DNA from: Xanthostigma xanthostigma
Taxonomy: Eukaryota > Arthropoda > Insecta > Raphidioptera > Raphidiidae
Assembly (NCBI GenBank): GCA_963575645.1
Contig: OY754476.1
Span: 5,208,001 to 5,272,000, forward strand
Direction of reading: 5' to 3'
DNA length: 64,000 bases
Within the stretch, counting starts at the first letter, position 1. Each line of letters starts with the position of its first letter. Shown in pieces: positions 25,436 to 63,862 of the stretch. Made by a program: the position numbers and the translations under genes. The notes beneath the pieces were generated by a model. It had not been told where the DNA came from. It did not search any database and saw only the letters and a list, made by a program, of their open reading frames with translations.

Positions 25436-28400
25436 ATGGACAATCAAAAAAATACGTCAAATCGTGAAAGAGAAATAACTTTAAGACCTATAGCATCAGG
25501 TTCTACAGGTAACTTGTATTTACATTTTTTTATTCATTAAAACGTTTAATAGTATCATTCCTAATTGAGTAACACCAAATTCCAGATAGGTGAGATTAAA
25601 ATGTTGAATGGATCGATTTCAATTTTTTCACAGTTTAAAATAGAGCATATAAGATACTACTAAATCAATGCACCACAACAAAGGGTAGATGAGCAGTAAT
25701 TGGCAATTGGCACCCCGACGGAATTATTAAATAAGATGTCACTTTTTAGGTTTTATTATTGGCAAATGTTTCTGAACCCAATTCCTTTTTAAGTGAACGA
25801 AGTGTCATTTTAAAAAATCATATAGTGCGTCTTTCTACCTAAATAAATATTTATTATTTGTTTATATTTTCTAGCTGGCAAACTTAACATTATTTTCCAA
25901 ACATTTCTTTTATTACTAACTGATCAAAACGTACTGCAAGATATTAATTGTATTGTGATAAAACTTGAACGAATTTAAAAATAGCCACGACATTTATTAT
26001 TACTCATCTATTTTCGTCAGATAATTTAGAGAAGTTTCAAAGTTGAACGTATTTTTTTTCAGAATTAGAAATACCTGTTTACAATGAAAGAGTGGCAATA
26101 ACTTCACAACCCGTTCCTACAAATGAAAGTAAGTTTTCAAAATCCGTAGAAACGAACCTTTATCAAGCATATCTCTGTTACATAATTTCAAAAGTTCTCT
26201 GTTAAGGCCCCCATACACCTCGTTCTTTTTTGGCAGTTTTCATCGTCACGATAAAACACGTCGGTCAAAACCGAAGTGTATGGGCAAAAACTGTCGATGA
26301 AACACGGCAGTTTTTTTATCTGCCGAAGCTTGATTTTAAACACGACGTGTTTGCTGGTTGTCGTTTTAAATCGTAATGTGTGGCGCTTTCCGATAAGAAT
26401 CGACGTGTTTATTCAGTGGTGCGACGTACAGCAAATAAGTCATATTAATTAAATGATTGTAATTAGTTTGAGTATTGATTTATATTTTAACCGTTTTAGT
26501 GCTAAGCAATTTTGACAAAAATAAATGAAAATTGCTATAAACATATTGATTAATTTAGAGGAAAAAATAATGGTGTCAAATAAAACACTCTAATTTAGAC
26601 TAATATCAATCAATTTTATTAATTATTTTTGCATTATATTGTTTATTAATGTTTATTAAACATAAAATAATATCAATATTATTGTATTTTCCATCAAAGC
26701 AGATCGTATTAATGATGCCACGACTTCAGAAAAACTGAACGAAACTACGCCTCTGTGTTTAAATTAACCGTACAGTTTTACCAGTGCGGTTAAAACTGCC
26801 ATAAAAGAACGAGGTGTATGGGGATGGCCGTTGTTCGTGTTTAACCGTACAGTTTTACACGGCGGTTAAAACTGCCAAAAAAGAACGAGGTGTATGGGGG
26901 CCATTATAGTACATAACATATTTTTATATGAAATTTTTTCATTAAATGCAACCACATTTTTTAATGGAAAAATATGGTATAATCGTTGCTAACTAGAAAA
27001 AAAATATTTTTTATTCTAAATTAATACGGTAGATCCCTTTTATATACTTTAATACATTTTTCAATAAAATATTGTTTTTCACCATGTCAGATTCAATTTT
27101 TAAGCGCCGTGACAGCGTTTTTTTTATAAACAAATTAGCTTTTACAAGGGCCGTGTCAAAACACCGCCTTAATTTTTTTCTGAAAGAAGGTTTGACATCT
27201 ATTTTATGCATAAAAATTGGTCTGTCAGCGAAAAAATGTTTTTTACTATGACAGACTTCATAAACAAAAAAAATTATAACAAAATATGAAGTCTGACCAA
27301 TTTATTAACAAAAATTGTCAGCCAGACCAGTTGTATTAGATAGAAGAGATCTTAAACTTTATTTAAAAAAAAAAATTCAAGGAGGTGTTATGAAATGTAT
27401 TTTCATAAAAAAAATAATTTATAACAAATGAAGTCTGACAAATTTATTAACAAAAATTGTCAGCCAGACCAATTTTTTCAAAAATAGTACATTATTTACT
27501 ACAAATTGTATAAATTTCAAGCAGGTGTTTTGGAAAGTAAAATCATGTTTTTTTTTAAATTCAAAAATTCATAAAAAATAACAATTAACAAATTTTTACT
27601 TGTCTGGCGGGCGTAACATGTTTCTGACATGTTTTTCAGCCATTTTCACTTTATAATTTTGAGGTGTTCTTTGGGGTAACTTTTTCTGTCATGGGAGCTT
27701 AAACTATAAAGATGACCTTCTATTAAATTTTTTTGAAGATATTTTCCCTGGTAACAGACGTCCAATTCCTGTTTCAACAATTGAATGGCAGTCAACAAAT
27801 ATGACACAAATTGTCGCAAGAAGTGGCTTAGACTTTTTAGACGGTGTTGATGGCCTTTACATTCAACAAACAATTGAACTAGATGATAGTAAGTCAAGAT
27901 AATAATTACATTTTTTAAGATAAGACAAGACTATTATTCGAAATCGTATCATCATTTTACTTGGTACCAATATTTTTTATCAAACGAAACGTTAAAACCA
28001 AAAAGTCTTAGGCCTAGTTTATATGAGAGGCGTTCAACGCGCGTTGGCCCAACGCGCGTTTACAGTTTCTATACAATTGTATAGAACTGTTTACATGATA
28101 ACGCGCGTTGGTTGCGCGTTGAACGCGCGTTATCATATAAACAGTTCTATACAATTGTATAGAAACTGTAAACGCGCGTTGGGCCAACGCGCGTTGAACG
28201 CCTCTCATATAAACTAGGCCTTAGGCCTAGCACACATGAAGAGCGTTCAACGCGCGTTGTGCCAACGCGCGTTTACAACTTCTATACAATTGTATATAAG
28301 GCCTAGCACACATGAAGAGCGTTTAACGCGTGTTGGCCCAACGCGCGCTTACAGTTTCTATACAATTGTATATAACTGTTTACATGATAACGCGCGTTCA

Positions 28401-30584
28401 ACGCGCCACCAACGCGCGTTATCATGTAAACAGTTATATACAATTGTATAGAAACTGTAAGCGCGCGTTGGGCCAACTCGCGTTGAACGCTCTTCATGTG
28501 TGCTAGGCCTTATTTGCGATGCCGAAGGACGTGATGCGCTTATTGCGCCTTTACAACGATCCGCCACTGTTTCTAAGGTGTAACTCAAAAAATGAGTCTA
28601 CTATCTAATCATTTTTGCGTTCTGAATGACAGCATTAAAATATTATGTTATTCTATTATTTGTTTTTGTAGTATTGTTAAATGTGGAATCAGAAAATCGT
28701 TATACGGTGAAAGTGCCTCGAGGAGAATCGTTATATCTAGCAACTGAATCATCTACATCATGCCATAGAACTTGGTTCGGTTCCAATCGAGCTTTCAGCA
28801 TGAGATTGTACGATCAGACACGACAAGAATCGTTGCAATTTAGACGAAAATTTGCATGTATCAGTTGTATATTCGGGTGCTATTTACAGGTAATGACGAA
28901 CGTTTTGGCAACAAAGCCTTTTTACGTACGCATATTATTATTGTTGTAACAATCAAGTCGATTGTTGATCCACAACAATCCGTGTGTCATTGTTAGAATG
29001 ACGAGCCGATTGTTGTCTCACGAAATTCTTTGTCGTCCCAACGGGGAGCGTGTAACAATATTATATTATTTTGTAAAGACCGCTGCACACGAGGCAAGTT
29101 TTGCGCTGGAACCACTGCGGGTATTTGCGTGCTGGCTATTTATCAAAAAATAAAATAACTCTATCCAGTGTGGATACAACTTCTTAAACTATTGTCATAT
29201 AGCTCTTAAAGTAGTAGATCCCCACCTCAAGTATCTGAATAGACACATAGGTAAAAATGTTTGTTCCAGGAAATGGAAGTTTGGCTACCTCCTGGCGAGT
29301 TTTTGGGTGTTATACAACAACAGTGGTCTTTACTAAATCCCACTTTATTCGTACTGACTCCTGAAGGTGACACAATTCTATTTCGTATTGTTGGTCCAGC
29401 AAGTATGTGTGTTTGCACTATATCGAAGGATGTTGAATTTAAGGTCAATATAATAAGATATACATCTTTCATTTTTACAGATTATCAACCAAATACATAC
29501 GATTAATTTAATTTATAAATAGATCAGATTGAATACAATATTATAATTAAATATTTCCACAAAATATCAGCTAGTCTTTTAAAAACATTCAGGATTCCAC
29601 TAAAAAACTCTTGCTGAAATTTTTAAAAGAAATATACAGTACTTATGTAAACACGTAAGGTGCACATAGGGAAATTAGCATTGGGAAAAAATACTTGAAT
29701 CAGAGTTAGTCATGACTGCATGAATTGTTATTTCTACTGAATTATCGTGGTAATCTTGAGGATTTCTATTTTATTTTGATTTATTTTTATTTTACTTGGC
29801 TTTTTTAACAATAAAAAGCTCTTATAAATCATTATTTTAATTTTTTTGTACAAAAATAAAACAAAAAAACAACTCCATCTGTTTGGAAACATTTCATTCA
29901 AAAATTGTCTGACTGGTATGACGTATGCGCGTTGGTAAATCAGTGACCCAATGTCTTTAGGTTCAACACGAATAGGCGGAGATATTTGATCTCGCACCAT
30001 ATTTAAGTATTTTTGGGAATTTAATGTCCCATTAATAAAAAAGAATATTTTCTTCGGTAGTATACACATTCATTTTGCAAAAGAATATTATCTGTTAAAT
30101 TGAGAAACAAGATTTCAAGGCTCACTCTGATCCAGTCATTTTTTCCCAATGCTAATTTCCCTATGTGCACCTTACGTGTTTACATACTGTTTATTAATTT
30201 TTGTCAATGTCCCCAATAGCCAAGCAGATAAAGTAATAAATCGTAAATAAATATATTATTATATTATTAGGTTTTAACAGGCGACGGAACACAAACAATA
30301 GGATCTATTTCACATCAATGGGACCATTTGTTGGTGGGGTATAATATGTGTGTTGACTTTCCAAATAGAAGTATGGATAAAAAGCATAAGGCTTTGCTTC
30401 TTGGAGCTGCATTTTTATTGGTTTGTAAAAATACGTTTTAATGCTTGAATTCATCTTTTAACCTTCCACGACGGATACAGATAGTAGATAAATAGACATA
30501 TTTAATTATATGTTTTTATCATTCCAGGAATACATGTATTTTGAAAGGCAAAAATCTACCAAATGCTGCAAGTGTGCTTGTTAA
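25436..30584 (+). CDS. PLSCR: Phospholipid scramblase, complete (7 exons)
   Basis: Exons: 25436-25508, 26063-26128, 27739-27888, 28672-28889, 29270-29443, 30271-30420, 30528-30584; all phases agree, giving 295 aa. After a short polar N-terminus come family hallmarks: SGLDFLDGVDGLYIQQ, NRYTVKVPRGESLYLATE, TWFGSNRAFSMRLYD, EVWLPPGEFLGVIQQQW, and KALLLGAAFLLEYMYFE near the C-terminus, which corresponds to the single hydrophobic helix behind the Ca2+-binding segment of human PLSCR1. These proteins are linked to Ca2+-dependent, non-specific lipid movement between membrane leaflets. The PLSCR1 Cys-rich palmitoylation cluster is reduced to CISCIFGC. The C-terminus ends in a Cys cluster (CCKCAC) that could be lipidated (inference). 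The exon 5 donor is an unusual GTCAAT. Introns hold a Harbinger-like MITE, two palindromic elements and a mariner relic. Confidence 0.93.
26206..26902. mobile_element. Harbinger-like MITE with long TIRs
   Basis: The left end GGCCCCCATACACCTCGTTC pairs with GAACGAGGTGTATGGGGGCC at the right over more than 30 bp. A second partial copy of the right end lies about 80 bp inside it (near 26805-26825). The 3-bp flanks do not match. It lies in scramblase intron 2. Confidence 0.8.
27274..27620 (+). repeat. Degenerate ~145-bp tandem repeat with GCCAGAC core
   Basis: Two clear copies share GAAGTCTGAC, AATTTATTAACAAAAATTGT and CAGCCAGACCA (core GCCAGAC at 27321 and 27463). A weaker third follows, with GTCTGGC in inverted orientation at 27602. 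TTCAAGNAGGTGTT lies between units. Located in scramblase intron 2. Confidence 0.65.
28011..28220. mobile_element. Palindromic Harbinger-like MITE, subtype A
   Basis: A near-perfect 210-bp palindrome. It starts GGCCTAGTTTATATGAGAGG and ends with its complement, flanked by TTA on both sides (28008-28010, 28221-28223). Each arm carries several copies of AACGCGCGTT, making it far more CpG-rich than its surroundings. Located in scramblase intron 3. Confidence 0.85.
28224..28509. mobile_element. Palindromic Harbinger-like MITE, subtype B, with duplicated head
   Basis: Abuts the previous element, sharing its TTA. A 76-bp partial head (28224-28299) is followed by a complete 210-bp palindrome (28300-28509) starting GGCCTAGCACACATGAAGAG. 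TTA follows at 28510-28512. Arms repeat AACGCGCGTT as in subtype A. Confidence 0.8.
29637..30189 (-). mobile_element. Tc1/mariner-like element with transposase fragment, copy 1
   Basis: TIRs of about 60 bp include GTAAGGTGCACATAGGGAAA. On the minus strand about 29880-30025 encodes a decayed DDE transposase segment (NSQKYLNMVRDQI, then IPVRQFLNEMFPNRW), the family stretch preceding the second catalytic Asp region. The region beyond is missing. A TA lies at the left edge. Copy 2 is at 39373-39952. Located in scramblase intron 5. Confidence 0.75.
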
Positions 30585-30726
30585 ATCCATAGGCGTAGCT
30601 AAGGTGGAGTGGTCGATGAAATCCGACACATTCTATAAAATATATGAACAAAAACTGTCCAGACAGACGGGCCCCATCCCTGCTTCAAATCTTCTAGTTA
30701 CATCAATGCTGTTGGTATTAGCTCTG

Positions 30727-30860
30727 TCCCAACCTCCCTACGAACGGTACCATAACCGTCACAGTCATGCGCAGTAGCTAAAACGAAACTGTATCGGTTA
30801 TTGAGCTACTGCGCATGACTATGATGCTTCTGTTACCGTTCGCAGAGAGGCTGGATCAGA
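30727..30860. repeat. Small fold-back element
   Basis: The arms pair across about 20 bp; the left contains AGTCATGCGCAGTAGCT and the right AGCTACTGCGCATGACT, with an outer pairing of CTACGAACGGTA and TACCGTTCGCAGAG. It lies just 3' of the scramblase stop, inside or near the 3' UTR. Confidence 0.75.
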
Positions 30861-30950
30861 GCTATTAAAATACGTACCTACTAATTTGACAATATATTTA
30901 TTTAATTAAATAATTTGTAATGAAACTGCCCTGTTCAGCTGTGTTATGAT

Positions 30951-31718: not shown

Positions 31719-31726
31719 GTTATGAT

Positions 31727-34306: not shown

Positions 34307-37300
34307 ATGTCATCAGCGAATAGGATAGTAGTGACTGAAGCAAACACCAATGACCAAGAAAAAGTTAAAGTAACATTGACATCTTGCACAGATAAGAAAT
34401 GTCCAAGAACTAAGAAAAAAGAGCCACATACTTCAGTTTTATTGCCTAACAGTAAATATTATTATTATTATACATAATTTAAGGGTAGTACTACAGAAAA
34501 CATTTATAGACAGGCAACGTACATTAACGTAATTCCGCGGCAAAACATGAAGACAACTAGCCACGTTAATTGACGTAATGTCTATGCAGGGCCGGATTAA
34601 CCCTGTCCGGGCCCCTAGGCAATGCAATCAGGTCTTTTCAAGTTGATGAAGGGATGTGAGTAACTTCCGGCATCCTGTTACTTCAATGTCTTATGTGGTA
34701 TTGTAACAACATGATTACTTTGACTAGATGCTGCAGCATCGCCTTACCTGACTCGTTAGCTTTATTGAAATGGTCTTAATCAATAGGCTATAGATAATTG
34801 ATGATCCAGGTTTTTTGATGGGTCAGGAAAGAGAAATGAGACGTGACGTACTTATTTAAAATTTTATCTTGTTAAATGCAATAAATTACAATAAACAACG
34901 AAAGAAAATAATATTGTTGTTGGAAAATTTCATGCAAATTTTCAAATAAAATTTTCGTTCAATGAAAAGTTTTTTTTCTTGGTGCGTGCACGGGCCCCTA
35001 GTCGATGCGGGGCCCCTAGGCAGTTGCCTACTCTGCCTAATGGTTAATCCGGCACTGTGTCTATGACAATATATTATATAAATTACGCAAACTCGCAGTT
35101 CATGTTATCAACGAAATATATTTTTACAAACTGCTTCTGTTTAGAAGATTTTAACGTTATTATAAAATCTGCCACAGTTATGTTTTTTGCTTAGTCTAGA
35201 AATAAATCATTTTCACTATTTAAAAACAATCACAAAACTCGAAGTTATTAACTACTTCTTAACCATCGTTTTAAAAACCGTCAAAACTACCTGCTGCACT
35301 CTGTATCATTTATATGATTTAATGTAGATACGCAATTTCTTTGTAGGTAACATAGATGGAGAAATTGATGTTCATATCCAAACTCACATTGCGTTTGAAA
35401 ATAGACGAACAAAACTGTACATTCAACTAAATTTGTTAATATCTTTAATTATTATAATATTATCTTTCGTTGCCATTGCACATTTAAAAACTGAACTTAA
35501 CAACGTTCAAAAGAAATTATTGGTTCTTCAACAAGAATTATTAACACTGTCTATTAAATATGAATATTTTGACGCGACTTTAGCGTCTATGAATACAACC
35601 GTTAATACAAATTATGAATATTTAAAAGTAGACGGTGTAGATAAAAGTAACATTGGTCTAAAAAATCAGACAAATGATGCACAAGAAAATCTTTTAGTCG
35701 ATGGAAAGGATCCTCTTTATGAATATACCGATGAGTATGTCGAGGAAGGTGTCTTGGCAGGTGACAATAGAAATTTCGATTATAGAAGAGTAGCATCGCG
35801 AAGATTTCCAACTCCAAAAATAGGTGGGTTTAAAAAAAAGTGTGTGTCACAACATCCGAACTAATTATTATGCAGTACTTAAAAACAGTAAAGCTCGACT
35901 TGTTTTTATGAGTGAAAAGAAAATGAAATATAGAGTGATGCAGAAATAGAGGCGAAAAAAAACCTACTTATAATGAAGTGTAATGCCGGCACTTCACATG
36001 ACTATTTGTATTTGGCATATTTGGCAAACAATTATCAAGTGTGGACAGTCTATTTGACAAAGTGTTGGCCTTATTTGCCTATTTGACAAATAAGGCCAAT
36101 ACCAAATACGCGCTACCGTGCGCTTGTCGGTTTTTCGAGACACATCAAAGGAGTCAAATACGCAAATAAACCGTCCACACAATGACCATATTCAGAAGCG
36201 CACGTGCCGTGAACCTGTACGGACGTGCAGTATTTTTGTGTCTGTGCTGTGAGCGAGAACTGGAACAATTACTATTGAAAATGAATTGGGACAATGAAAC
36301 AGTGCTAAAATTTCTGGAATTTTGAACCTTACGTTCTGCTGCCAAATGTTTGTGTGTTTGCTATTTGACTGCCATGTGTAGATGGTCGTATTTGCCTCTA
36401 TTTGCATGTTGGCCTTGAACGTCATATATTTTGCCAAATACAACAAACACCCAATAGCGTACACAAATAGCCATGAGAAGTGCCACCTTTAGAGATCACG
36501 TTAGCAAAGTTTAGAATTACAGGCCCGTAGCCACGTAAGGGCATGTACGGGCGATGCCCGTACTAGCGATTTGTTTGCCCGTTTGTTGTTATATAATCTC
36601 GCCCGTCCATCGTTCTTATTTGCCCGTACTACGATTTGGACCTGGCTACGGGCCTATTTAGAAATAATTTAATTTTAAGTTTCCGACGTTTGTGGAAATT
36701 GTATTGATTCCGTGAGTTTTATTTACTTAATTAACATAAAAACAAAGGCATTTCTAATTTTATTGTTCAAACGGGAGAAAACAAGAATTGAAATAGGCGG
36801 AGAAAATTCAAATTGACTAATTTATTGATTTTTGTTGTTAATATTCATATAGCTAATATTTTTTTATTCAAACTACAGATGATGGAAAAACGTGCTCATA
36901 TTAAATTTATTGAATTCCTCGCTTTATTATCGAAAATCCAAGATGAACACATTTTCCAAGATCTGAAGAACTTATCTGTAGTATCTAATTAAATTTGATA
37001 TTTTGACGTGATAACGTCTTATAAACTAATGAAACACCGGCTGCACGCACGAAAAAGTGTCACGTTCCGCCTGAGCCTGAGCGTGCAAGCGAGAGCGCGG
37101 TATAAGCGATAGAGAGGCACGATCGGCCCAAGCGTCGGCTTGTACGCATTTCTCTCTCTTCTCGCGTGACGTCAGAGAGTTCATCAATGTTTCTTTATGA
37201 CGTTATCACGTAAAACTATCGCCCGTAAACCGACTTTACAGACAACCAATTTTTTTTTTACCTTCAATTGTATTATTTCAAAAGGAATGCAAAATTAAGA

Positions 37301-39236
37301 AGTAATATACAATAACATGGACTTACCCAAGACTGGAAACTTTATTATGCAATGAAATTCACAAGTTCACAAATGCTGCATGCTTCTATTAAAATTTCGT
37401 GCTTCGGAGACACTACGCGCTCGGAAAAACGGTTAACATACTGTTTGTGTGTTTCTGCCAGCTTTTAATTCACCATTATAATAAAAACATATCCGCTAAT
37501 TAGAAAATGTTATGCGGTAAAGTTTTTAAGACTAAATTAATAACAGTAAGATATAGCTAGAGTTTGCCACAATTTTTAAAAAACACTCATATTATATATT
37601 AGAAAAATGTATTGTCAAACACTGTAACATATCTGTTAATATTCGTAAAAAGGGACCACTTTTGTTTTATCAGCATCATGGCAGAGCAATCGCTAATAAC
37701 TGATCATAAAATGCATTTAGTTTAAAAATTCACAGCAGTTACATAATCAGTATAGATGTTTGACTTTGGTTAGTCCTTGAAGGCACAATACGAAATTCAA
37801 TTCGCCAGTGGCGGGTGCATTTTTTAAAAGAAACTTTTATTTTTTTTCTAAAATGAACCTGCCGATTTCTTTCATATTTTAAGATACTGAAGATTTAAGC
37901 TTATTTGATTTCTGAATTTTTTTCCACCTCTATTTCTGAATGAGCCTGTATATTTAAATAAAAAACGAACATTTTTTGTATTGCTGAGCGAACAATAGTC
38001 TCAGAATGATAAACTGTACGTTAAACATTTGTATTTTTCTTAGGTGTGTTGTCTGCCCACTTCAAAGGTGGAAGGCCAGATTTGAATGTCTTAAATGGAG
38101 GTAGTATGTACCGATCTGATATTTTTTTATGTTTGACGCAAACAAACCACTAATTGTTTCCACTTTTAGGTAAAATAGGGCCATGGAGTCATGACATATC
38201 GGCAGGGGGGAAGTTTAATTTTTCCAAATACAAATTCGAAGATAAAAATTCCACATTGTATATATTGGAAGGTGGATTATATATCGTATATGCACAGGTA
38301 TGCCTTATGCCGGCACTTCACATGGCTATTTGTATTTGGCATATTTGGCAAACAATTACCAAGTGTGGAGGGTCTATTTGACAAAGTGTTGGCCTTATTT
38401 GCCTATTTGACAAGGCCAATACCAAATACCCGTTATCGTGCGCTTGTCGGTTTTTTCGAGGCACATCAAAGGAGTCAAATAGGCAAATACGCAAATAAAC
38501 CGTCCACACAATGGCCATATTCAGAAGCGCACGTGCCGTGAACCTGTACGGACGTGCAGTATTTTTGTGTCTGTGCTGTGAGCGAGAACTGGAACAATTA
38601 CTATTGAAAATGAATTGGGACAATGAAACAGTGCTAAAATTTCTGGAATTTTGAACCTTACGTTCTGCTGCCAAATGTTTGTGTGTTTGCTATTTGACTG
38701 CCATGTGTAGATGGTCGTATTTGCCTCTATTTGCTTGTTTGTCTTGAACGTCATATATTTTGCCAAATACAACAAACACCCAATAGCGAACACAAATAGC
38801 CATATGAAGTGCCACCTTTATGCCAAGGCATTAGTCAAGAATAATGATTGTTTAATTTATTTTTCTCTGCATTTAATGGCCACATATTATATAATTCCTT
38901 TTTTGTCAGAAGCCATTTCGAAAATAATGATTGTTTTTGATGTTTTAGATGTATTATGAAACATCGAGCTTAACTAATAGCTTCTCTATAAATTTGATGC
39001 GCAAAGAGCATCCCCTATCGACAATTATTGCAAAATGCAGTACGATAGGAGTAAGGACAGCTGATTTATCAGCCGATACGAGCTGTTATACATCTGTAGT
39101 TTACAATTTGAGATCTCACGATCGTTTGTATATTCAGCAAACCGAAAAAAATCGAACTGTGATACTTCGCAAAGGACACTCATTTATAGGACTTGTCAAA
39201 TTGTCTCAAGAGTTACCGACGTCTTCAGTTACTTAA
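34307..39236 (+). CDS. egr: Eiger-type TNF superfamily ligand, complete (5 exons)
   Basis: Exons: 34307-34451, 35347-35823, 38044-38100, 38170-38297, 38949-39236; all phases agree, giving 364 aa. Layout: cytoplasmic tail of about 70 residues, a single membrane anchor at about 72-93 (LNLLISLIIIILSFVAIA), a heptad-like stalk (VQKKLLVLQQELLTL), an acidic linker, a dibasic site (RRVASRR, about 195-201) suited to proprotein cleavage, and a C-terminal TNF homology domain from about residue 210. The domain shows AHFKGG, LEGGLYIVYAQ (the GLYxVYxQ signature) and the final FIGLVKL strand. Type II topology and the spacing fit insect Eiger, which signals through Wengen/Grindelwald to JNK. Poly(A) signals follow the TAA. 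Introns carry a hAT MITE, two Harbinger-like elements and other debris. Gene identity is family-level; orthology is not tested. Confidence 0.88.
34587..35057. mobile_element. hAT MITE (471 bp), copy 2
   Basis: Same family as 7863-8317. Left end CAGGGCCGGATTAACC, right end GGTTAATCCGGCACTG, perfect 8-bp duplication TGTCTATG (34579-34586, 35058-35065). Lies in intron 1 of the TNF-type gene. Confidence 0.9.
35986..36487. mobile_element. Harbinger-like element with MADF-like remnant, copy 1
   Basis: TIR GGCACTTCACATG facing CATGAGAAGTGCC. Subterminal repeats of ATTTGGCA and CAAATA fill both ends. On the plus strand at 36281 a frame starts MNWDNETVLKFLEF and then stops; this resembles the beginning of MADF/Myb-like proteins that accompany PIF/Harbinger transposases. 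Copy 2 is at 38310-38817. Confidence 0.7.
36518..36656. mobile_element. Short hAT-type MITE (139 bp)
   Basis: Ends carry CAGGCCCGTAGCCA and TGGCTACGGGCCT. Flanks TTTAGAAT and TTTAGAAA match at 7 of 8 positions. Internal CCCGTAC repeats face each other. Confidence 0.7.
36998..37262. repeat. Dispersed repeat with GATAACGTC termini, copy 1
   Basis: Bounded by TGACGTGATAACGTCTTAT at the left and ATGACGTTATCACGTAAAAC near the right. Interior blocks (AAGCGAGAGCGCGGTATAAG, ATCGGCCCAAG) recur in inverted orientation at about 61183-61712 inside the Ig-protein gene. Superfamily not assigned. Confidence 0.65.
38310..38817. mobile_element. Harbinger-like element with MADF-like remnant, copy 2
   Basis: A close relative of 35986-36487, with TIR GGCACTTCACATGGCTATTT and its complement. 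It is inserted in the last intron of the TNF-type gene, 12 bp after the exon end, between the two largest TNF-domain exons. The frames it carries on both strands are element-derived. Confidence 0.75.
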
Positions 39237-39372: not shown

Positions 39373-39952
39373 CAGTATGTAAACGCGTAAGGTGCACATA
39401 GGGAAATTAGTATTGGGAAACAATACTTGGATCAGAGTTAGCCATGACTGCATTAAGTGTTATTTCTATTGAATTATCGTGGTAATCTTGAGGATTTCTA
39501 TTTTATTTTAATTTATTTTTATTTTACTTGGCTTTTTTAATAATAAAATACTTATAAATCATTATTTTATTTTTTTTGTACAAAAATAAAACAAAAAAAC
39601 AACACCGTCTGTTTGGAAACATTGCATTCAAAAATTGTCTGACTGGTATTATGTATGCGCGTTGGTAAATCAGTGACCCAATGTCTTTAGGTTCAACACG
39701 AATAGGCGGAGATATTTGATCTCGCACCATATTATTTAAGTATTTTTGGGAACTTAATGTCCTATTTATAAAAAAAGTCCGATTATGTTGTAATCATTTG
39801 AATATTTTCTTCAGTAGTATACACATTGATTTTGCAAAAGAATATTATCTGTCAAATTGAAAAACAAGATTTCAAGGCTCACTCTGATCCAGTCATTTTT
39901 TCCCAATGTTAATTTCCCTATGTGCACCTTACGTGCTGTACTGTACATACTG
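39373..39952 (-). mobile_element. Tc1/mariner-like element with transposase fragment, copy 2
   Basis: Ends CAGTATGTAAACGCGTAAGG and a complement ending ACATACTG, with TA on both sides (39371-39372, 39953-39954). The same transposase relic as at 29637 lies on the minus strand (MVRDQISPP; IPVRQFLNAMFPNR). Confidence 0.8.
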
Positions 39953-40284: not shown

Positions 40285-40356
40285 TCAGAATGATAAAAGT
40301 AATAAAGGCAGCTACACACGGTCAGATAAACTGTACAGTTAAAGCTCTTCAATTAA

Positions 40357-40774
40357 GGCCGTGTTCAGATGAGGCGTTTTACGCGCGAGTCCACTCGCGC
40401 GTTTCAATTTCTATTGCGTCCAGATACCGCATTTTACGCGCGTTTCTGCGCTGAGCTCGCTGTGGCGCCAGTTACAAACATGGACTCGGAAACTGCGGTT
40501 GTGTTGTGGCTTGCATACCCTCGATCGAAACATCGCAACGGACTCGCGCGTAGTACTGGACGCAGCAATTGGCACCCGAGTATCTCGACTCGCACGGCGC
40601 TCGCGCGTAAAACGCGCGAGTCGAGAGTCCCGCTCATTGCACGCGTTTTACGCGCGAGTTAGGAAACGCGCGTAGGCATCTGGACGGGATATATGTAGCT
40701 CTGGTATCTCGAGTACGCGCGACTGTCAACGCGCGAGTGGACTCGCGCATAAAACGCCTCATCTGAACACGCCC
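40357..40774. mobile_element. CpG-rich fold-back element, TAA target site
   Basis: The left end GGCCGTGTTCAGATGAGGCG pairs with CGCCTCATCTGAACACGCCC at the right. TAA flanks both sides (40354-40356, 40775-40777). Arms are filled with ACGCGCGAGT-type words. Frames on both strands are by-products of the palindrome. Confidence 0.85.
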
Positions 40775-41213
40775 TAAATCGTATGTACGTGGGGCCTACA
40801 CACGTTGAGATAAATCTATCAGTCCCTTACCTACAGTTTATGATAATATGGCCTCGACTACTTACGACGTTCTAGCGGTGGTCAGATTAATATCTGCCAT
40901 GAAAAAGACTCATAAAAGATGACGCAGCATATGGTGTAAATATAGATGAGAATACCTATCTAAATCTTTTTTCTTTAGTTACACCATTTACGGAAAAGAA
41001 ACATAACTGTCATGCGAAATGCTATCCCTCCACATCAGAGGTTTTTTTTTTACTATTTATAAGCTCGCATGGGATCCTTTTTAATTTTGAGTATGCAGCA
41101 TCTCTTTTCGCACAGTCGCGGTATAGACTGTATTTTCCAGAGATAATATTCGTTTCTATTTTCTGTAAATTCCTCAAACCACTCTCGTTGACTTCATGGA
41201 CTGTGTTGACATT

Positions 41214-41624
41214 GGGTGTGTTTGGCCGAAGTAAGTACTTACTAAACTTAGTAAACCAGTAAGCATAAAAAAATTAAAATCTTACAAGCTGACTATAGCG
41301 CTTTTCGGCCAGGACAGACTTACTGGCTTGTCATAACTCAAAACACCGGTTTACGTTATATCCCGTACATAACCTCATAGATTGAATATAATTGACAGTA
41401 CTAAATTTATCATTATAATTTAATTCATGTAAATAAATTACAAATGGATAAATGAGAGGTATGGTACTGTTTGTTTTGTTTACATCAACAATAAGCAAAA
41501 TGGCGTCTTATATTAAGCCATGCTTACTGCGTTAGCACTTATTTTGTGTTCCGGCCGAAAATTTTGTAAGTGTAGTAAGTGACTTACTAAATTTAGTAAG
41601 TACTTACTTCGGCCAAACACGCCC
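41214..41624. mobile_element. Fold-back element, ATT target site
   Basis: The left end GGGTGTGTTTGGCCGAAGTA pairs with TACTTCGGCCAAACACGCCC-type sequence at the right. ATT flanks both sides. Repeats of ACTTACTAAA and TTTAGTAAGT occur in the arms. Confidence 0.8.
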
Positions 41625-41894
41625 ATTGTTTTGGTGCACGTGAAGCTTGACAGTAAAATATAATTAATGATTGTAATTTGCAATCACTATCATTTATCAA
41701 ACGAGTTTTTGTATTTCATCAGTTCAACTGATACACACGTTCAACACCATACACACGTTGCGATTTAACTAAACAGTTTTATAACTGGCAGTTTAACTGA
41801 CCGTGTAGCTGCCTTTACAAAATTGTAATTTTAAGTGCGAGAGAGAACAAGACTTTTTTTCTCTCTCTGACATTCATTACAGTAGATAGCTTTA

Positions 41895-42570
41895 GGCCTA
41901 GCTCACATGAAGAGCGTTCAACGCGCGTTGGCTCAACGCGCGATTACAATTTCTATACAATTGCATAATATAACTGTTTATATGATAACGCGCGTTCAAC
42001 GCGGCGCCAACGCGCGTTATCATATAAACAGTTATATACAATTTATTGTATAGAATTGGGCTTTTGAATGAAATTTTTTTTTGTCATAAATGGAAAGATC
42101 GTATATAAGTTTTATAACAAAACTATTTTTCTTTTTTTTATTTTCGTTATAATTCAAAAGTTATATCAAATTAAAAATAAATTTTTGTACTCAGTTCCGA
42201 GAACGCGCCGACTTTTCCCGAACATGATGTGACGTCATAATGGTAATTTATATTATTATAATAATACATGTAGAAGCCATTGATAGTATACTGCGTATAT
42301 ACATTTTAACATTATGACGTCACAACGGTCATAAACAATTTTAGTGCGTTTGCAGTCACGTGATTTTTTTTAATATTTTATCAATTTTAAATTGCTTATA
42401 ATTAATTTAAAAAAAGTTTTTTGAAAGTTTTTCGCATCGATTATCAATATTATTTATAATAAAGTTTTAAAATATAACAAAACAATCGATAATTATTTTT
42501 TTTTCAAAAGCCTAATTGTAAACGCGCGTTGAGCCAACGCGCGTTGAACGCTTTTCATGTGTGCTAGGCC
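41895..42570. mobile_element. Palindromic Harbinger-like MITE, subtype B, interrupted
   Basis: Starts GGCCTAGCTCACATGAAGAG and ends with CATGTGTGCTAGGCC. TTA lies at the left and ATA at the right, probably a mutated duplication. The right arm is split by another element at 42058-42513. Confidence 0.8.
42058..42513. mobile_element. Nested MITE inside the palindromic element
   Basis: The unbroken arm at 55790-55800 reads TAGAAATTGTAAAC; here ATT is present on both sides of the insert. Ends GGGCTTTTGAATG and CAAAAGCCT are inverted repeats. The interior is AT-rich with GACGTCATAATGG-type words. Confidence 0.75.
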
Positions 42571-49358: not shown

Positions 49359-49949
49359 AAAGGCCGCTTTACACAGGTGTAGTAGCAGGCGCGGTCCGAA
49401 GGGGGGGGGGGTCACAGGGGACATGACCCCCCCCCAAAATCTAAGGTCAAATTGAAAAATTTCAAAAATTTGCCAAATAATGTTTGTGCAATAGATAATG
49501 TTTATTTTATTCCAGATACCTATTTTTTATTAGTGTAGTGAGTGACCCCCTCCAAAATTTCAGGCTGCAACCGCGCCTGTGTAGTAGCTAAAGCAAGTAG
49601 CTAACTTTAGCTACTTGCATTGTGTGAACAGTTTAGTATAGTAAAGTACTGGCGTTTTAGTAAAAGTTTTAGTCAAGTAGCTGGCTTGTCATCTTATTCA
49701 TAAAGCAAGTTGGTCCCCCACCACGCGTCGTAGCAACTAAAACGTGTACTAAACCCGTCTGGACAATCCCAGTTTAGAACAGTGTGGTTGTCTTGTTTAA
49801 TGATCTTTGAAGAAATTTTAATAATATTAATTTAGCTACTAAAAATATTGATAATGTGTGTAGACATTAGCTAAACGGTAATTCACTCAAATTTAGTTAC
49901 TTGCTCAAGCTACTTGCTTTAGCTACTACACCTGTGTAAATCCGCCTTT
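49359..49949. mobile_element. Harbinger-like MITE, AGT target site
   Basis: The left end AAAGGCCGCTTTACACAGG faces a right end reading CTGTGTAAATCCGCCTTT. AGT flanks both sides (49356-49358, 49950-49952). Arms repeat AGCTACTTGC and AGTAGCTAAA. A hAT element has landed in its left arm at 49386. Confidence 0.8.
49386..49579. mobile_element. hAT MITE nested in the Harbinger-like element (194 bp)
   Basis: Ends CAGGCGCGGTCCGAAG and TGCAACCGCGCCTG, perfect 8-bp duplication TGTAGTAG (49378-49385, 49580-49587). It contains poly-G and poly-C tracts near the left end, as does 43544-43818. Confidence 0.9.
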
Positions 49950-51136: not shown

Positions 51137-51833
51137 TATGTTTGTAACTCACCAGTCAATGAGTCATGACTATTGTGATGCGATAGAATTTAATTTTTTT
51201 ATAATTTCATAAAACCGCAAAAGAAAAATGGCAGTTTTTAAATTTTTTATAAATTTATTTAATTACCAATTTTTCAGTAGTGTTAGATCGAAAATTAAAG
51301 AATAGTTTATTTTAAATAGTATTTTCAAAACCTATTTTAAAATAACAGTTTATAACTTTTAGAAACTAATTTTTGTATAAATAAAAAATATATAGATCCA
51401 CAACAAAAGAAACATTGATATTTATTATTTAAATAATAATAATTTCTTGCAACGAAATGTTTATATTATCAAACTAAAAATCATACCCATCAATTTACAC
51501 TACTAGTGAAAACCATTAAATATTTGCTTATTTACAATTAAAAAAAAGTACCTCATTTCTTTTAAAATTACTTTCACCGTAACCGCACTAAAAGGGACAC
51601 ATTTAATGTGTCGTTTAATGAAAAATATTAATGTGGAAAAAATTATTCCAAATGGTAAAATTTTATTTCAATGTATTTACGTAGGGATTTTTTCCTACGA
51701 ATTTGTCTAGAAGTGACTATAAGCACTACGACTGTTAAAACTTAACTGATTAAACATCTAATAATGTAGTAAATATTGTACGGGGTAGAGGCACTAGTTA
51801 GTGCATTAATTTGGTGCAGTAAAGTTATAGAAT

Positions 51834-52593
51834 AAGAGCCCGCGGCAGCCAGACCTTCGTCTTTTTATAAAAGCTGAAAATTTTTCTATGGATGTCTCCA
51901 ATACAGGTAAGAATGATCCCCACCCATGAAACCTTTTTTGTAGTAAATGAGTCTCGTGATCCAGATTTCATACTCAAACTGATTTTTTTCCATTGGCGTA
52001 GAAGTTTTAGATGTTTAATTATCGAAAAAATCAAGTTCTACGCCCATGGAATGATATTCATCATTATTATGATATGGGTTTTATTGCCCAATAAAGCTAT
52101 GCCAACGTACCAAATTTGAGTAAAATCTCATGAGCCGTTTCAAAGTTATAAAGCAAAAACGATTTGAAAATTGTACACTTTTAATGCGTCTGGCAGGATG
52201 ATAGAACCCTCGAATCTGTCTGGCTACTAATGAAACATTATTTAATAGTTCTCCAAAAAATATATATAAAATTCAGCTTTTATAAAATAACGTAAATATA
52301 ATTACAAATTATAATAGTTTAAGGGTGTCTGGCAGGGGGTTGGAACCATACTAAGTGTCTGGCAATGAGCGACGCGAGTTTTAATATTGTTACGAATAAA
52401 ATATAAAAAAATTGAGTTTTATACAATGACGAATTTGAGATGGAATTTTATACACCTTTGCTACCTGTTACCTGCCAAAGCCACCACTACTCAGGTTTCA
52501 TGGGTGGGGATCATTCTTACCTGTATTGGAGACATCCATAGAAAAACTTTCAGCTTTTATAAAAAGACGAAGGTCTGGCTGCCGCGGGCTCTT
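51834..52593. mobile_element. Fold-back element with ~100-bp TIRs and GTCTGGC words
   Basis: The left arm starts AAGAGCCCGCGGCAGCCAGA and the right arm is its complement. Pairing extends over about 100 bp (CATGAAACC facing GGTTTCATG). Between the arms GTCTGGC occurs at 52188, 52218, 52327 and 52357; the arms add GCCAGAC at 51848 and GTCTGGC at 52573. Confidence 0.75.
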
Positions 52594-52699
52594 GGGCTAT
52601 TAGACTTCCATCCCATTCTAAATTAAATTGACAGCCGCTGTACCGTTATGATGGTAACACATCTATATGAAAATTTATACTTATTGTAACAAAGATAAA

Positions 52700-55653: not shown

Positions 55654-55841
55654 AGCCTAGCACACATGAAGAGCGTTCAACGCGCGTTGGCCCAACGCGC
55701 GTTTACAATTTCTATACAATTGTATATAACTGTTTACATGATAACGCGCGTTATCATGTAAACAGTTATATACAATTGTATAGAAATTGTAAACGCGCGT
55801 TGGGCCAACGCGCGTTGAACGCCTCTCATATAAACTAGGCC
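55654..55841. mobile_element. Palindromic Harbinger-like MITE, hybrid of subtypes A and B
   Basis: TTA flanks both sides (55651-55653, 55842-55844). The left end is of subtype B (GCCTAGCACACATGAAGAGC) and the right end of subtype A (CCTCTCATATAAACTAGGCC). The 188-bp body is otherwise a near-perfect palindrome with AACGCGCGTT words. Confidence 0.85.
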
Positions 55842-55844
55842 TTA

Positions 55845-56689: not shown

Positions 56690-56803
56690 TATAAACGCAC
56701 AGCCTAAACCGGTGGGTCTAGAAGCACAGGAGTCCCTTATATGACGTAAGTGAGCACTAAGAAAGGATTTTTGAAAATTCATCCCCTTAGGAGGCCAGGC
56801 CTA
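56690..56803 (+). repeat. Displaced unit of the 55230 tandem repeat
   Basis: Contains AACGCACAGCCTAAACCGG, GGTCTAGAAGCA, GTAAGTGAGCACTA and TTTTTGAAAATTCATCCCC, aligned with the second unit at 55379. Confidence 0.75.
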
Positions 56804-56835
56804 TTGAATTCAGTGAAATAAACTATTTTTTTTAA

Positions 56836-57160
56836 AGTGAAACTTTTATTCTATCGCCCCGAATTTTTCTGGCCGTCTGTTGCATGTCGCATTACAGGCG
56901 GCCGCGGAGTAGGGATTAAGTGAAAGGCGTTCGGAGTAGGCGCTCAGTAGAGCAGCCAAGGCCAATATGGCGGCGCCCATGGTTAGCATCAGCTGACCGT
57001 GTAGTATGTGTAACACATAGTCAGTCTGTCATGCGGGCAAGTGCTGTACAGTGTTTACATGTTTTTATTCGTGTATTCATGTGAATATTGTTGTTTATAA
57101 TTAATCGTGATGGATAAGTGTCTACAATCCAACGCCTACAATCCAATAAAAGTTTCACTT
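56836..57160. mobile_element. MITE with AAGTGAAACTTTTATT ends
   Basis: AAGTGAAACTTTTATT at the left and AATAAAAGTTTCACTT at the right are perfect 16-bp inverted repeats. No matching flanking duplication was found. The interior is GC-richer than its surroundings. Confidence 0.6.
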
Positions 57161-58563: not shown

Positions 58564-59030
58564 CAGGTGAGTTTTAAGTTGATGCTTTTTTTTACAGCGT
58601 GTAAAAATCAAATAGACGAGCAAATATTTCAAATAGTTTTTTTATCAAAACTCAAAAATAAAAGAGAAACAGCCTTTCGAAGTTTAAATAAATTTTATTA
58701 AATTTTCTTTAATTTTGAGGTCGGTCCTGGGGTTATATTATGTCACTATGGAAATAAGTTGTTATTATCAAGTATGTGTATTGTTCTGTTTTTGAGAGAA
58801 TTGTGTGTGCCTCAATTATTTTTGATAATAATAACATATTTCCATAGTGACATAATATAATCTCAGGACCGACCTCAAAATTAAAGAAAATTTAATAAAA
58901 TTTATTTAAACTTCGAAAGGCTGTTTCTCTCTTATTTTTGAGTTTTGATAAAAAAACTATTTGAAATATTTGCTCGTCTATTTGATTTTTACACGCTGTA
59001 AAAAAAAGCATCAACTTAAAACTCATTCTG
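58564..59030. mobile_element. Near-perfect fold-back element (467 bp)
   Basis: Arms of about 215 bp pair almost perfectly around a spacer of about 40 bp near 58800. The left arm contains CAAATAGACGAGCAAATATT and GAGGTCGGTCCTGGG; the right arm holds the complement. Ends CAGGTGAGTTTTAAG and CTTAAAACTCATTCTG sit next to TA, suggesting a TA-targeting MITE. Confidence 0.9.
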
Positions 59031-59306
59031 TATATTATATGTACGAGAGGAATTTGTAAGAAACATACAGCATAAAATATATTAATTTTTAGATAAGGGA
59101 TTGTGGACATCAGACAGTTATAATATTCGATATTGTTTAGTAAAAATCCAACAAAACAAAATATGGATGGTTTCCTAGAAAAAAAATTAGATTAGAAAAA
59201 AGTTTTTGAATAAATTAGTGCAAGAACTAAATAAAACAAAATTTTTTTAAATTATCAAAATCTTCAAAGCTCGAATATTATAAGTCAGATTTTAATATTA
59301 ATGTAT

Positions 59307-59688
59307 CGTCGTTGGTTATGTAATACCTCTTATGTGCAAAAAGTAAAATTTGCAGGAAAGGCCAAAAAGTGGTTATTTCAGCAATGGATGGCAAGAACTA
59401 GCAATTTCAGAGGTATATTACTAATTCATACTTATCTTCACTATACGTGTTTAATTAAGACGAAGTATTTTCTTAAAAAATATTTAACGTTAATTTCGGA
59501 TTTATTGGCACATGGGAGGAATTATTTGATACAACTTTTTACGTAAGAGTTACTTCCCCTTGTTGGTTACTGCAAAATTAATTTGGAGGTATTACCGGTG
59601 TATAGAGCTCAGTTTCCTGAATCTTTTCATCTAAAAAACGTAAAATCTGCCAATTATGCACGTAAGAGCTATTACAGAACCAACGACG
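59307..59688. mobile_element. MITE with 4-bp TSD, copy 2
   Basis: Ends CGTCGTTGGTTATGTAATA and TATTACAGAACCAACGACG-type sequence. GTAT flanks both sides. It is the reverse-orientation relative of 12224-12595 and lies about 100 bp downstream of the Ig-protein stop codon. Confidence 0.75.
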
Positions 59689-59750
59689 GTATTCGATATC
59701 CGTCCATTGAAAACTTTTTCCTACGAAATAGAAGACTCGGATCACCTTAA

Positions 59751-59793
59751 TTTATTATAAAAAACTACCAAGACATTGTAATCATACTTTATT
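59751..59793 (-). terminator. Poly(A) signals of the Ig-protein gene
   Basis: On the minus strand AATAAA occurs at 59792-59787, overlapping the stop codon TAA (59791-59789), and again at 59756-59751. The first would give a 3' UTR of only a few tens of bases. Confidence 0.5.
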
Positions 59794-62700
59794 GGTCCCC
59801 TGTTGGACACACATTTAGCGAAAATGCAGCGAAAGATTCACCCTTCTTGCCAATAGCTTTGACTTGATATTGACCAAGGTCACTGGAATCGCACGAACAT
59901 ATTTCAAGTTTGAATTTATTTCCATCGACTGAGAATTTGTATTTGGAACTCTTCTCTGGTACTGTTTTACCATCTTTAAGCCAGTCGAGTTTCAGTGGCG
60001 TGTCTACAGTTTCGACGGTAAACGTCGCATTCTCTCCCGTTGAAATAGTCGCCGAAACCGGGAATGTTTTGAATGCTGGACCTTTCGGCTGTTCACCTGG
60101 CACCAGAACACTAAGCGTACATGAACTGAAACTTTCGCCGGCGTCGTTAAATGCTTCACAAGTATATGCTCCCGAATCCTCTGGGAATATTTCCGCTATT
60201 TGTAGTTTATATATATTGGCTTCATTTGAATATTGGAAGTCTTTGCTCGGTTTTATTTCTTTGTTGTTGTGTAACCATACGACGTCAAATTGTTCGGCGC
60301 CTATTATTCTGCACGATAGCGTTACTGGCTCTCCATCATTTACTAACGCCGACTGTAAGTGACTCACAATTCTCGGAGGTTTGTCTTTGCTCGTTTTCTT
60401 TTCACCCGTCGAATTTGTCATTGCTGAAATAATAAAAAAAATATATTTATAAGACCACGGGAATGTAAATTACAATGTTTTTTTGAAGCCTTGCTATACT
60501 TACGTTTGATTGTTAATTTGCATTTAGTTTCTGTTACACCGATTGTATTGGTTGCCCTGCAGATATATTCACCTTCATCTTCTGGAAATACTTCATTAAT
60601 AGACAGGACCGCTACACCATTCTTATATTTAATATCCATAATATCAGATGAGCTCAGTTGCTATAAAAAATTTTTAAATATTAATCATCGATCGCATATA
60701 ACGAGCAGAAAACAGTCTGCAAAATAGTAAGTATATTATACAAACCTTGCTACCCTTGAACCAAGAAATTTGAGGATCAGGGTCTCCCTTAACACTACAA
60801 CTTAATGTCAATTTATCCCCATCATTTATTACTAAGTTCTTGAGTGCTCTCGTGAATTCCGGCTTACACATCAAAGAATCATCTGGAGGCACTAAAATTA
60901 TAGATGTAAACATTATAAAACTGATATTAATTTTAAAGGTAAAGTTTGGATAAAATAACTTACGGGCCAGTTCTTTAGTGGTGCTGCGAGATCTATTTGG
61001 ACTACCTGTTGAGTCTAATCGAGCGCCATATTTCTTTATAGATCGTTTATCCATATCTGACGTACTTAGACTGGATGAAATATGACTTGAGCTTACGTTT
61101 GTTCTCGATGAGGACTTAAAAAAAAACAAAATGATATTATAGTCACAGATGATTTTTTACAGAGACTTACAAAAAAAAAATTGGTTGTCTGTAAAGTCGG
61201 TTTACGGACGATAGTTTTACGTGATAACGTCATAAAGAAACATTGAACCATACTCGTAAAGTGTTGAAAAATAACTTTTTTTATTTTTCACATTATACGT
61301 ATACGTTTCCAAACATTTATTTTTACATATTTAAATAGTAAAATTAGAGTTCTAACCAACTGTAGAAACGGTTTTTAAATATAATGAACCGTTTTCAAAA
61401 TACACGCAGTTTTAATAAACGGACGGTCGGGTGGTGTGGATTTTTCACTCCCTGTAAGTATATATACGAGCGAACTGTGGCAGTCTATTGGAAGTTTGTG
61501 TCTTGTGATCTTTAATAAATAATTTTTGTAGCTGCCAAACTTGGGCCGATCGTGCTTCTCTATCGCTTATACTGCGCTCTCGCTTGCACGCACAGGGTCA
61601 GGCGGAACGTGACACATTTCGGAACGTGACACTTTTTCGTACATGCAGCCGGTGTTTCATCAATTTATCAGATTGGTGTTTCATCAATTTATAAGACGTT
61701 ATCACGTCAAAAAAATGTAATACATACCTTATGTACAGAACTGTGCGAGTTTGTCGACGCGTAATTTGTTGAGGAATGACTACTTGTTACATTCGTCTTA
61801 CGAATTATTGGTGGTGGAGCCTGTTTCAATGGATGTTCAATATATTTGCGATCTAGAAAACAATTTTCATTAACATAATTAAATCCTCAAAGTTAGTTAT
61901 TGCTTTTTCATTCATTTACCTCCTGAATGGAGAATCTTTTGTGCAATTTGTGATTGTTCTGATGTGCTTCTTAGACCTTAAATTCAACAAATTATGTAAA
62001 TTATAAAACGATATAACGACTTGTGACATTAAAACAGATAATATAATTGTGTTATTTACCTTCAACTATCACGACAGCAGAAGTTTCGTCAGAGCCATGG
62101 CAGTTAGTAGCAATGCAGCTATATTTTCCGGAATCTTCAGGTTTGCAGTCAACTATCTCCATGGTAACAACACCATCAGCGCTCGACATCGCAAATTCAT
62201 ACTTACTTAGCTCTCGTTTATCCTTATACCATTTTACGGTTGGGAACGGTTTACCACTTAAGCAGCACAGCAATTTACAAGTATCGCGCTCCTAAAATAC
62301 GATTATTTTTTAACAAAATTAGTTCTTTTTTTAGGAGCAACATGTAGAGGATCTCTTATTTGTCCTAAAACGGGATATCAGAAAAAGCTTAATTTTTTTA
62401 CAACAATGCACTTCATACGTAAGTGCAACAAAGACTTCAATTCTTCTTAAATCTGTCACTCTAGGCTCAGACTGCACTAGCCTAATAGGCTCCACTCACG
62501 ATCAAACTTTATGCCACAGTTCAGTGTTCAAACTTATAGTTCAGTGAAGCATGATAATGTGTGGGACAAATAAACACTGAAACCAACACTGAAGTTAGGC
62601 ATGAACTCATTAAATGCATCTTAATTTTTGAACGACTTTTAGTTCAGTGTTCAAGTAAACTGCTGTGTGTGTGCGTTTTTTTCAGTTCAGTTTTTGGAGT

Positions 62701-63862
62701 TCTGTGTTTTGTACAACCAGAAGCCAAAAATCTCAATGTTGTTGCAAGTCTCTTTTGTACAGAAATAGATTTTCGCATATTTGTGTCCTGGTTCTTAATA
62801 AATAGGGTAACTAATTTCAGTAAATAATTGTAAGTTAATTCATCCATTCGTAAATAATTATTCCAATCAAGCGGTTCAAGATGTAATTCATTAATCAAAT
62901 AAACATGACTTCTTGAATCACGCATTTCTAACAAATTTTTAACCCATATTCTTCTTTTTTTTCTTATTTCCCTGTTTTAAATACAATCCCATAGCTATGA
63001 ACAGCCAATCCTCACCATTTAAATAACTCATTTAGTTCTTATCTATTAACTATCTATAGTATAATATTATAGTATGTATATAATATATATTTTATATGTA
63101 TATCTATTCTCGACGAGTGTATGCCAACAACTGAACCAAACTGAACACAAAAAATTTAAAAAAATGAACAGTTTGCATGAACTGTGTGTGGTACCAGTCA
63201 GTCTTTCGATTAATCGGTCCAACTTCACTGAACACTGAACTGTGGCATGAAGTTTGATCGTGAGTGTGGCCTATTACGTTTGGGTGCTGTATTTTTTATG
63301 TAATATTTTTTAAAGGTAGGTACATACTTGCATGACACGAGGACGCAAAAGGAATGTGAAACTAGGCGCGCATTCTGCTTCTTCTTGCCAGAACGTATAT
63401 GGTAATGGTTCACGTCTTCGCGTTGCTTGTAATTCAGGCTTATATTCCGGTATAACTTTGGGTAATGCTAAAAAAAAACACGTGATAGACCCGTTATTCA
63501 TTTATGTTGGGGTCGATGTTTAAAAAATTAGACTAAATAATTAAAGTTTATCGAGATACATTGACACTTACGTTGAACGTTAAGGAAGACCACTTCTTCT
63601 CTGAATCCATAATGATTTTCAGCCCGGATAACGTATTCTCCGCGATCTTCCAATTTAACTCTGTTGATGATGAAGTAATAGTCATCACCCGCATATCTCT
63701 TCATAAATTTAACACTTTGTCTCAACTCTTGGTTGTTGTGTGACCACGTTAATGTTGGTGTGGCAATTGCAATCACACGACAATATAATTTAACACTTTG
63801 ACCTTCATAACAGAATGCACTTTGAGGCTTAATGACAAAGCGTGGCGCTGCTTGTCTCCTAT
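59789..63862 (-). CDS. bt: Projectin/twitchin-like Ig protein, C-terminal part (9 exons)
   Basis: Exons in transcript order: 63862-63572, 63467-63328, 62291-62060, 61976-61920, 61852-61728, 61114-60964, 60891-60746, 60660-60504, 60423-59789; all phases agree (643 aa to the stop). It encodes five I-set Ig domains: Ig1 in the first exon (APRFVIKPQ, LEDRGEYVIRAENHYG); Ig2 over exons 2-3 (KWYKDKREL, PEDSGKYSCIATNCHG); a Ser-rich linker over exons 4-6; Ig3 over exons 7-8 (PDPQISWFKG, DEGEYICRATN); Ig4 and Ig5 in the last exon (FPEDSGAYTCEAFNDAG; SSDLGQYQVKAIGKKG). Five Ig domains after the kinase is the known C-terminus of invertebrate twitchin/projectin, the titin-like thick-filament and connecting-filament protein of striated muscle. 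Ig1 with KQSVKYMKRY-like sequence fits the first domain after the kinase. The kinase itself would lie beyond 64000. Alternatives are stretchin-MLCK or obscurin/Unc-89. Confidence 0.82.
61183..61712. repeat. Dispersed repeat with GATAACGTC termini, copy 2
   Basis: The left side contains TTACGTGATAACGTCATAAA and the right TTATAAGACGTTATCACGTC. Blocks such as TATACTGCGCTCTCGCTTGC mirror 36998-37262 in inverted orientation. This copy carries an extra AT-rich middle and a duplicated TGGTGTTTCATCAATTTAT. It lies in an intron of the Ig-protein gene. Confidence 0.65.
62488..63271 (-). mobile_element. PIF/Harbinger element with transposase fragment
   Basis: Inverted ends GGCTCCACTCACGATCAAAC and its near-complement at the right (GTTTGATCGTGAGTGTGGCC) enclose about 784 bp; subterminal AGTTCAGTGTTCA words repeat in both orientations. 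On the minus strand 62934-62644 encodes the start of a HARBI1-like nuclease (WNNYLRMDELTYNYLLKLVT, IKNQDTNMRKSI, QKRLATTLRFLASG) and then ends; the catalytic part is missing. It lies in the intron between the second and third listed Ig exons. Confidence 0.8.

Follow-up and report, generated by a model that had tools for sequence, protein, structure and literature searches.

Fold-back elements with GG-rich ends lie close together in one stretch of insect DNA, and the question is whether a single transposase moved them all. We addressed this question in 64,000 nucleotides of Xanthostigma xanthostigma contig OY754476.1 (positions 5,208,001 to 5,272,000; termed the window, with positions counted from its first base). 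An initial annotation had described 12 loci there as unrelated palindromes mobilised by one Harbinger enzyme through a short end code, namely GGC or a similar start followed closely by the word YACA (Y, C or T). Its observation was partly confirmed and its interpretation partly supported. The loci represent short DNA transposons, probably non-autonomous members of the PHIS superfamily (PIF/Harbinger, Spy, ISL2EU, Pangu and Nuwa) that use transposases of their own groups. Firm evidence for Harbinger in the window is limited to one lineage, formed by the elements termed B and C below.

Inverted-repeat elements at twelve loci

All 12 loci are inverted-repeat elements, and a partner end was located for each, in agreement with the fold-back nature first ascribed to them. 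Each listed start was compared with its inverted partner by counting mismatches in 18 bp. Mechanical matching gave a partner for 11 of these starts (0-4 mismatches); at the twelfth locus, 55654, the partner is the other end variant, located at 55820-55841. The elements, none of which has an assigned strand, are the following.

28011..28220, B-family fold-back miniature inverted-repeat transposable element (MITE), variant-2 ends GGCCTAGTTTATATGAG, near-perfect palindrome without the YACA word, duplication TTA
28224..28509, B-family fold-back MITE, variant-1 ends GGCCTAGCACACATG, duplication TTA
41895..42570, B-family copy whose interior differs, flanked by TTA/ATA, with a decayed or absent duplication
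55654..55841, B-family hybrid, left end variant 1 (first base A), right end variant 2, duplication TTA
40357..40774, C element, ends GG(C/G)CGTGTTCAGATGAGG, duplication TAA, inside 40304-41816
41214..41624, P element, ends GGG(T/C)GTGTTTGGCCG, duplication ATT, inside 40304-41816
40304..41816, S1 element, AAA before GGCAGCTACACACGG at the left and TTT after GCC at the right, no 3-bp duplication, TA if the end is taken as AAGG
49359..49949, S2 element, AAA before GGCCGCTTTACACAGG at the left and TTT after GCC at the right, with AGT/AGT beyond AAA/TTT, or TA where the end is read as AAGG
35984..36488, first copy of the E family, ends containing GGCACTTC, no exact duplication (TAA/TTA at this boundary)
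38308..38817, second copy of the E family, TTA/TTA at this boundary, right flank continuing as TTATGCC
26205..26903, A element, ends (A/T)GGCCCCCATACACC, TTA/TTA only with the boundary one base further out
62488..63271, I element, ends GGCYMCACTCACGATC between TAATA and TATTA, readable as a 2-bp TA duplication, as AT one base out or as none

S1 hosts both C and P, and the hybrid at 55654-55841 is a palindrome without a spacer.

Insertion marks at the boundaries

The exact 3-bp duplications that can be read at the annotated boundaries are those that had been claimed, but only half of the loci have one: TTA at 28011, 28224 and 55654, TAA at 40357, ATT at 41214 and AGT at 49359 (6/12). Flanks are inexact at the remaining six, with TAA/ATT at 26206, TTA/ATA at 41895, ATG/CTT at both 35986 and 38310, AAT/ACA at 40304 and ATA/TAT at 62488. 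When boundaries were shifted, TTA was obtained at 26206 (one base on each side) and at 38310 (two bases), and TAA/TTA at 35986 (two bases). The right flank of the element at 38308-38817, TTATGCC, repeats the left TTA together with the element's first four bases; this 7-bp direct repeat is not accounted for by a 3-bp duplication.

A TWA duplication (W, A or T) is absent at the annotated boundary of 40304, 49359, 41214 and 62488 (AAT/ACA, AGT, ATT and ATA/TAT). The flanks of these elements read AAA/TTT at 40304, AGT or AAA/TTT at 49359, ATT at 41214 and TA or AT at 62488; in the AT case, with the boundary at 62487/63272, the end begins with AGG. Within the limits of a single window, the duplication type differs by family, an outcome that the initial annotation had itself named as counting against its proposal. 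Since the insertion marks differ between families, an end code read by one enzyme is not supported.

The lineage of 28011 and 40357

All 66 pairs of 12 end sequences were compared, each with 300 shuffles. The B ends scored 36 and 40 against the C end, with shuffle maxima of 26 and 25, and 0/300 shuffles reached either score. The ends of 28011 and 28224 are therefore homologous to that of 40357, and two supposed families form one lineage, which contradicts the description of the palindromes as unrelated. An exact TTA/TAA duplication is present in four of the five B/C copies (28011, 28224, 55654 and 40357), the copy at 41895 with TTA/ATA lacking it; 28011 and 28224 have one TTA in common. Random pairs of window positions gave any 3-bp match at a frequency of 0.024 and a TTA/TAA match at only 0.0026, so that the four B/C sites are not due to chance. 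The PIF/Harbinger origin of this lineage is well supported.

In the copy at 28224-28509 the left end is doubled as a 76-bp unit (second GGCCTAG at 28300), and the GGCCTAGCACACATG end thus occurs three times in one element.

The other end likenesses were smaller. Scores were reached by 2/300 shuffles for S1 and S2, 2/300 for S1 and a solo sequence at 29075 and 5/300 for S2 and the latter, compared with 3/300 for A and I and 5/300 for P and I. As the likeness among S1, S2 and 29075 is no better than that of A-I and P-I, a single S family is not claimed. The pattern AAAGG[CT]NGC has six matches in the window, five of which are inverted-repeat ends. The solo sequence at 29075, AAAGACCGCTGCACACG, resembles the ends of 40304 and 49359, and no partner end was noticed.

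The proposed end code

The first part of the proposed code, a GGC or GGG start, is found at the annotated left end of seven of the 12 loci. The other five begin with AGC (55654), with CCG and GGC two bases further in (35986 and 38310) or with AAA and GGC three bases further in (40304 and 49359).

The YACA word occurs within 20 bp of GG at 14/24 ends. The corresponding background is 15.5% of window positions, and the ends are enriched for the word, with the reservation that the word was picked post hoc and that copies are related. It is present at both ends of 26206, 28224, 41895, 40304 and 49359 (5/12 loci), at one end of 55654, 35986, 38310 and 62488 (4/12) and at neither end of 28011, 40357 and 41214 (3/12), all of which have 3-bp duplications. 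Variant 2, which lacks YACA, forms both ends of the TTA-flanked element 28011-28220; the word is consequently not required. The enrichment stands, and the YACA part of the code is contradicted by three loci.

An automatic scan of the window yielded 24 strong inverted-repeat families, some with misplaced outer edges, and by eye six of these 24 were counted as GG families. GG[CG] stands exactly at a 3-bp duplication in three families (B, C and P), although only about 1.2-1.3% of positions in the window start with this motif. Exact 3-bp duplications without a GG[CG] start are found at 51828-52599 (TTA, start TAG) and at 49359 (AGT, start AAAGG).

Comparison with published transposons

PHIS groups have a common type of transposase and differ in their targets, for which PMC4482050 gives TWA, AT (A/AT/T), ANT, CWG, CTNAG and AAATTT without duplication. 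End starts described there are usually GG for ISL2EU, AG or GG for Pangu and A or G for PIF/Harbinger. Spy is reported only from invertebrates, mainly arthropods, with AAA/TTT flanks (PMC11304231). Similar ends are known from plants and silkworm: rice mPing starts with GGCCAGTCACAATGG and mPong with GGCCATTCACAATG, as read from primers in PMC2836001; Medicago PIF ends mostly begin with GGG or GGC, then GTTTG (PMC2213677); and among the silkworm families treated in PMC2997013 those with TWA start with GGG or AGC and one with ATT starts with GG.

Nine window ends, one per element, were compared with eight published ends (300 shuffles), together with four non-GG control families. For four of the nine window ends no shuffle (0/300) reached the score of at least one pair (B1-mPing, C-BmMITE-6, C-BmMITE-9, P-MtPH-A5, E-mPing and E-mPong), and the best comparisons of B2 and I were reached by 1/300. 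The lowest value among the control families was 11/300. Given eight comparisons per end, these likenesses amount to moderate evidence. The occurrence of similar ends in rice, Medicago and silkworm suggests a superfamily signature present in plants and animals rather than a local code.

Tourist-like MITEs of PIF/Harbinger (mPing/mPong, MtPH and BmMITE-4/5/6) are short and have GG-rich ends, several of them with a CACA-like or GTGTTTG word, and their TTA/TAA duplication recurs in B and C; the near-perfect palindromes of the B copies 28011 and 55654 set these apart. As in Spy, 40304 and 49359 have AAA before and TTT after their GG ends and no direct duplication there. Unlike Spy, both have a conserved T outside AAA and a readable TA duplication, neither yielded a transposase, and in these single copies target and end are inseparable. 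The ATT duplication and GG start of 41214 resemble Pangu (ANT) and silkworm BmMITE-9 (ATT, GG start), although its ends are closer to Medicago MtPH-A5 than to BmMITE-9. One base beyond its GG end, 62488 has the flanks TAAT/ATTA, which bring it near to ISL2EU (A/AT/T target, GG ends); it differs from ISL2EU by an extra A/T between AT and GG and by the absence of an ISL2EU domain in the fragment scanned. The window flanks fit several PHIS target classes, and no fit outside TWA is conclusive.

Coding fragments

The initial annotation had placed a HARBI1-like transposase fragment in 62488 and MADF-like starts in two elements. The I element contains the following open fragment.

62716..62976, minus strand, open fragment of 87 aa, predicted to be all-helical

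We take this fragment to resemble the N-terminal part of a HARBI1-type transposase, a likeness supported by no library. Protein domains were searched with Pfam in seven of the 16 open reading frames (ORFs) of at least 110 aa and in nine fragments. For the HARBI1-like and MADF-like pieces no Pfam family was matched at an expectation value of up to 1 (110-aa ORF) or up to 10 (nine fragments), and the MADF-like starts found no confirmation in the fragments. Likewise, no Pfam match to a DDE transposase or to a Myb/SANT or MADF partner was obtained in the ORFs and fragments searched; MITEs need not encode either. No autonomous partner was identified within the window. Comparison of the 87-aa fragment with PDB sequences gave four matches with unrelated names (best expectation value 0.57). 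Its structural model, predicted with no alignment, has five helices at a mean predicted local distance difference test (pLDDT) score of 75.3 and has no bearing on kinship. S1 contains a possible transposase remnant at about 40848-41040.

A search of viral and genome contigs for loci related to the 87-aa fragment confirmed no relative, and exact-pattern scans of viral contigs for the B, C and P ends and for the transposase peptide pattern gave zero matches each. Five viral loci matched the S-end pattern and were judged to be chance: four had no partner, and the partner of the fifth, with 3 mismatches, lay about 5.4 kb from it. A weak link between the fragments in 62488 and 40304, whose score was reached by 3/200 shuffled queries, was not used.

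Origin of the elements

Most probably, the DDE transposase of its own PHIS group excised and inserted each family in trans, acting at GG-rich inverted ends, and the common GG start would be a feature of the superfamily, not a code read by one enzyme. Inverted ends, duplications, decay and the nesting of 40357 and 41214 in 40304-41816 are observed; the enzymes and their number are what we infer from them. A PIF/Harbinger origin is plausible for 26206, 38310 and 41214. The Harbinger label thus holds for the 28011/40357 lineage and perhaps for three more families. With less weight, 40304 and 49359 may be Spy-like (AAA^TTT, no duplication), 41214 may be Pangu-like, its ATT fitting ANT, or of Tourist type with an atypical duplication, and 62488 may be ISL2EU-like or belong to no assignable group.

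A number of results weigh against this assignment to several PHIS groups. Most families are single-copy in the window, so each duplication rests on one site. T precedes AAAGG at all six such ends, which is not a Spy requirement; 40304 and 49359 are both also readable as 2-bp TA duplications, and 49359 also as a 3-bp AGT duplication. The TTA obtained at shifted boundaries would make 26206 and 38310 Harbinger proper. With one end taken per element, A, S1 and S2 were not outstanding against the published ends (lowest 33, 12 and 6 of 300), a set that includes no Spy, Pangu or ISL2EU end. In 3/24 automatic families GG[CG] lies no more than 10 bp from each outer edge, compared with its presence in 25/144 inner 10-mers of the same arms, so that the edges show no excess, and the element at 51828-52599, with its TTA duplication and ends TAG(AAT/CCC)AAGAGCCCGCGGC, falls outside the GG grammar. 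Finally, Pfam identified no transposase domain in the ORFs and fragments scanned.

The original proposal, that one PIF/Harbinger transposase with a Myb/MADF partner moved all listed families through GGC plus YACA, appears improbable. It draws on the enrichment of YACA, on the precedent of mPing, which Ping and Pong proteins each mobilise in trans (PMC2836001), and on silkworm, where dissimilar MITE families with the same duplication have been suggested to use one transposase (PMC2997013). Yet insertion marks vary by family, 28011, 40357 and 41214 have 3-bp duplications without YACA at either end, similar ends occur in plants and silkworm, and the families had been chosen by their GG start out of at least 24. 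One might instead regard every listed family as PIF/Harbinger proper, each with its own autonomous partner, and the odd flanks as decayed TTA/TAA. TTA at the shifted boundaries 26205/26903 and 38308/38817 and the mPing-like ends of E and I agree with this; the AAA/TTT flanks common to 40304 and 49359, which are not obvious decayed TWA, and the exact ATT at 41214 do not, and we consider it possible but rather unlikely.

It is highly improbable that the shared end grammar mainly reflects the choice of loci, GG-starting repeats having been picked out of numerous unrelated families, with 40304, 49359 and 62488 belonging to another superfamily with TA duplications. While TA is readable at all three loci and the automatic GG rule shows no excess over inner sequence, the B, C, P and E ends beat shuffles against published Harbinger/Tourist ends and the four control families do not. 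We give hardly any credence to one PHIS transposase with relaxed target cutting that would accept several unrelated palindromes with a minimal GG-plus-CACA end, the substrate determining whether TTA, ATT or no duplication is left.

If the ordinary reading, several PHIS groups with their own transposases, holds, the result has mainly annotation value: several PHIS-type MITEs are packed in one region, among them a hybrid whose two ends are different variants and two elements nested in a third. Had one enzyme indeed served all, a very short code would suffice to describe transposon ends, and the insertion mark would not be a fixed property of the enzyme; the sharing of one transposase among dissimilar MITE families as such was already suggested for silkworm.

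Other features of the window

The window contains further transposons. An element at 15409-16809, which we take to be hAT-like, has a perfect 8-bp duplication, CCATCTAT, and further inverted repeats inside; 8-bp duplications were also seen at 7863-8317 and 4318. Two copies of one family at 29638-30192 and 39382-39937 have ends containing CGTAAGGTGCACATAGGG. A peptide fragment in this family is presumably mariner-like; the ORF at 29734-30069 gave no Pfam match. Another family, at 12224-12595 and 59307-59688, has CGTCGTTGGTT ends and 4-bp duplications ATTT and GTAT, the same duplications being noted for the CGTCGTTGG family; in start and duplication length it is like silkworm BmMITE-10 (PMC2997013).

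Rfam and tRNA scans of the whole window gave zero matches. The G+C content is 33%. Animal genes are present: among the seven ORFs scanned with Pfam, one matches the rhodopsin-type receptor family and one trypsin, and from our reading of the ORFs, immunoglobulin-type muscle exons presumably lie near the 3' end of the window.

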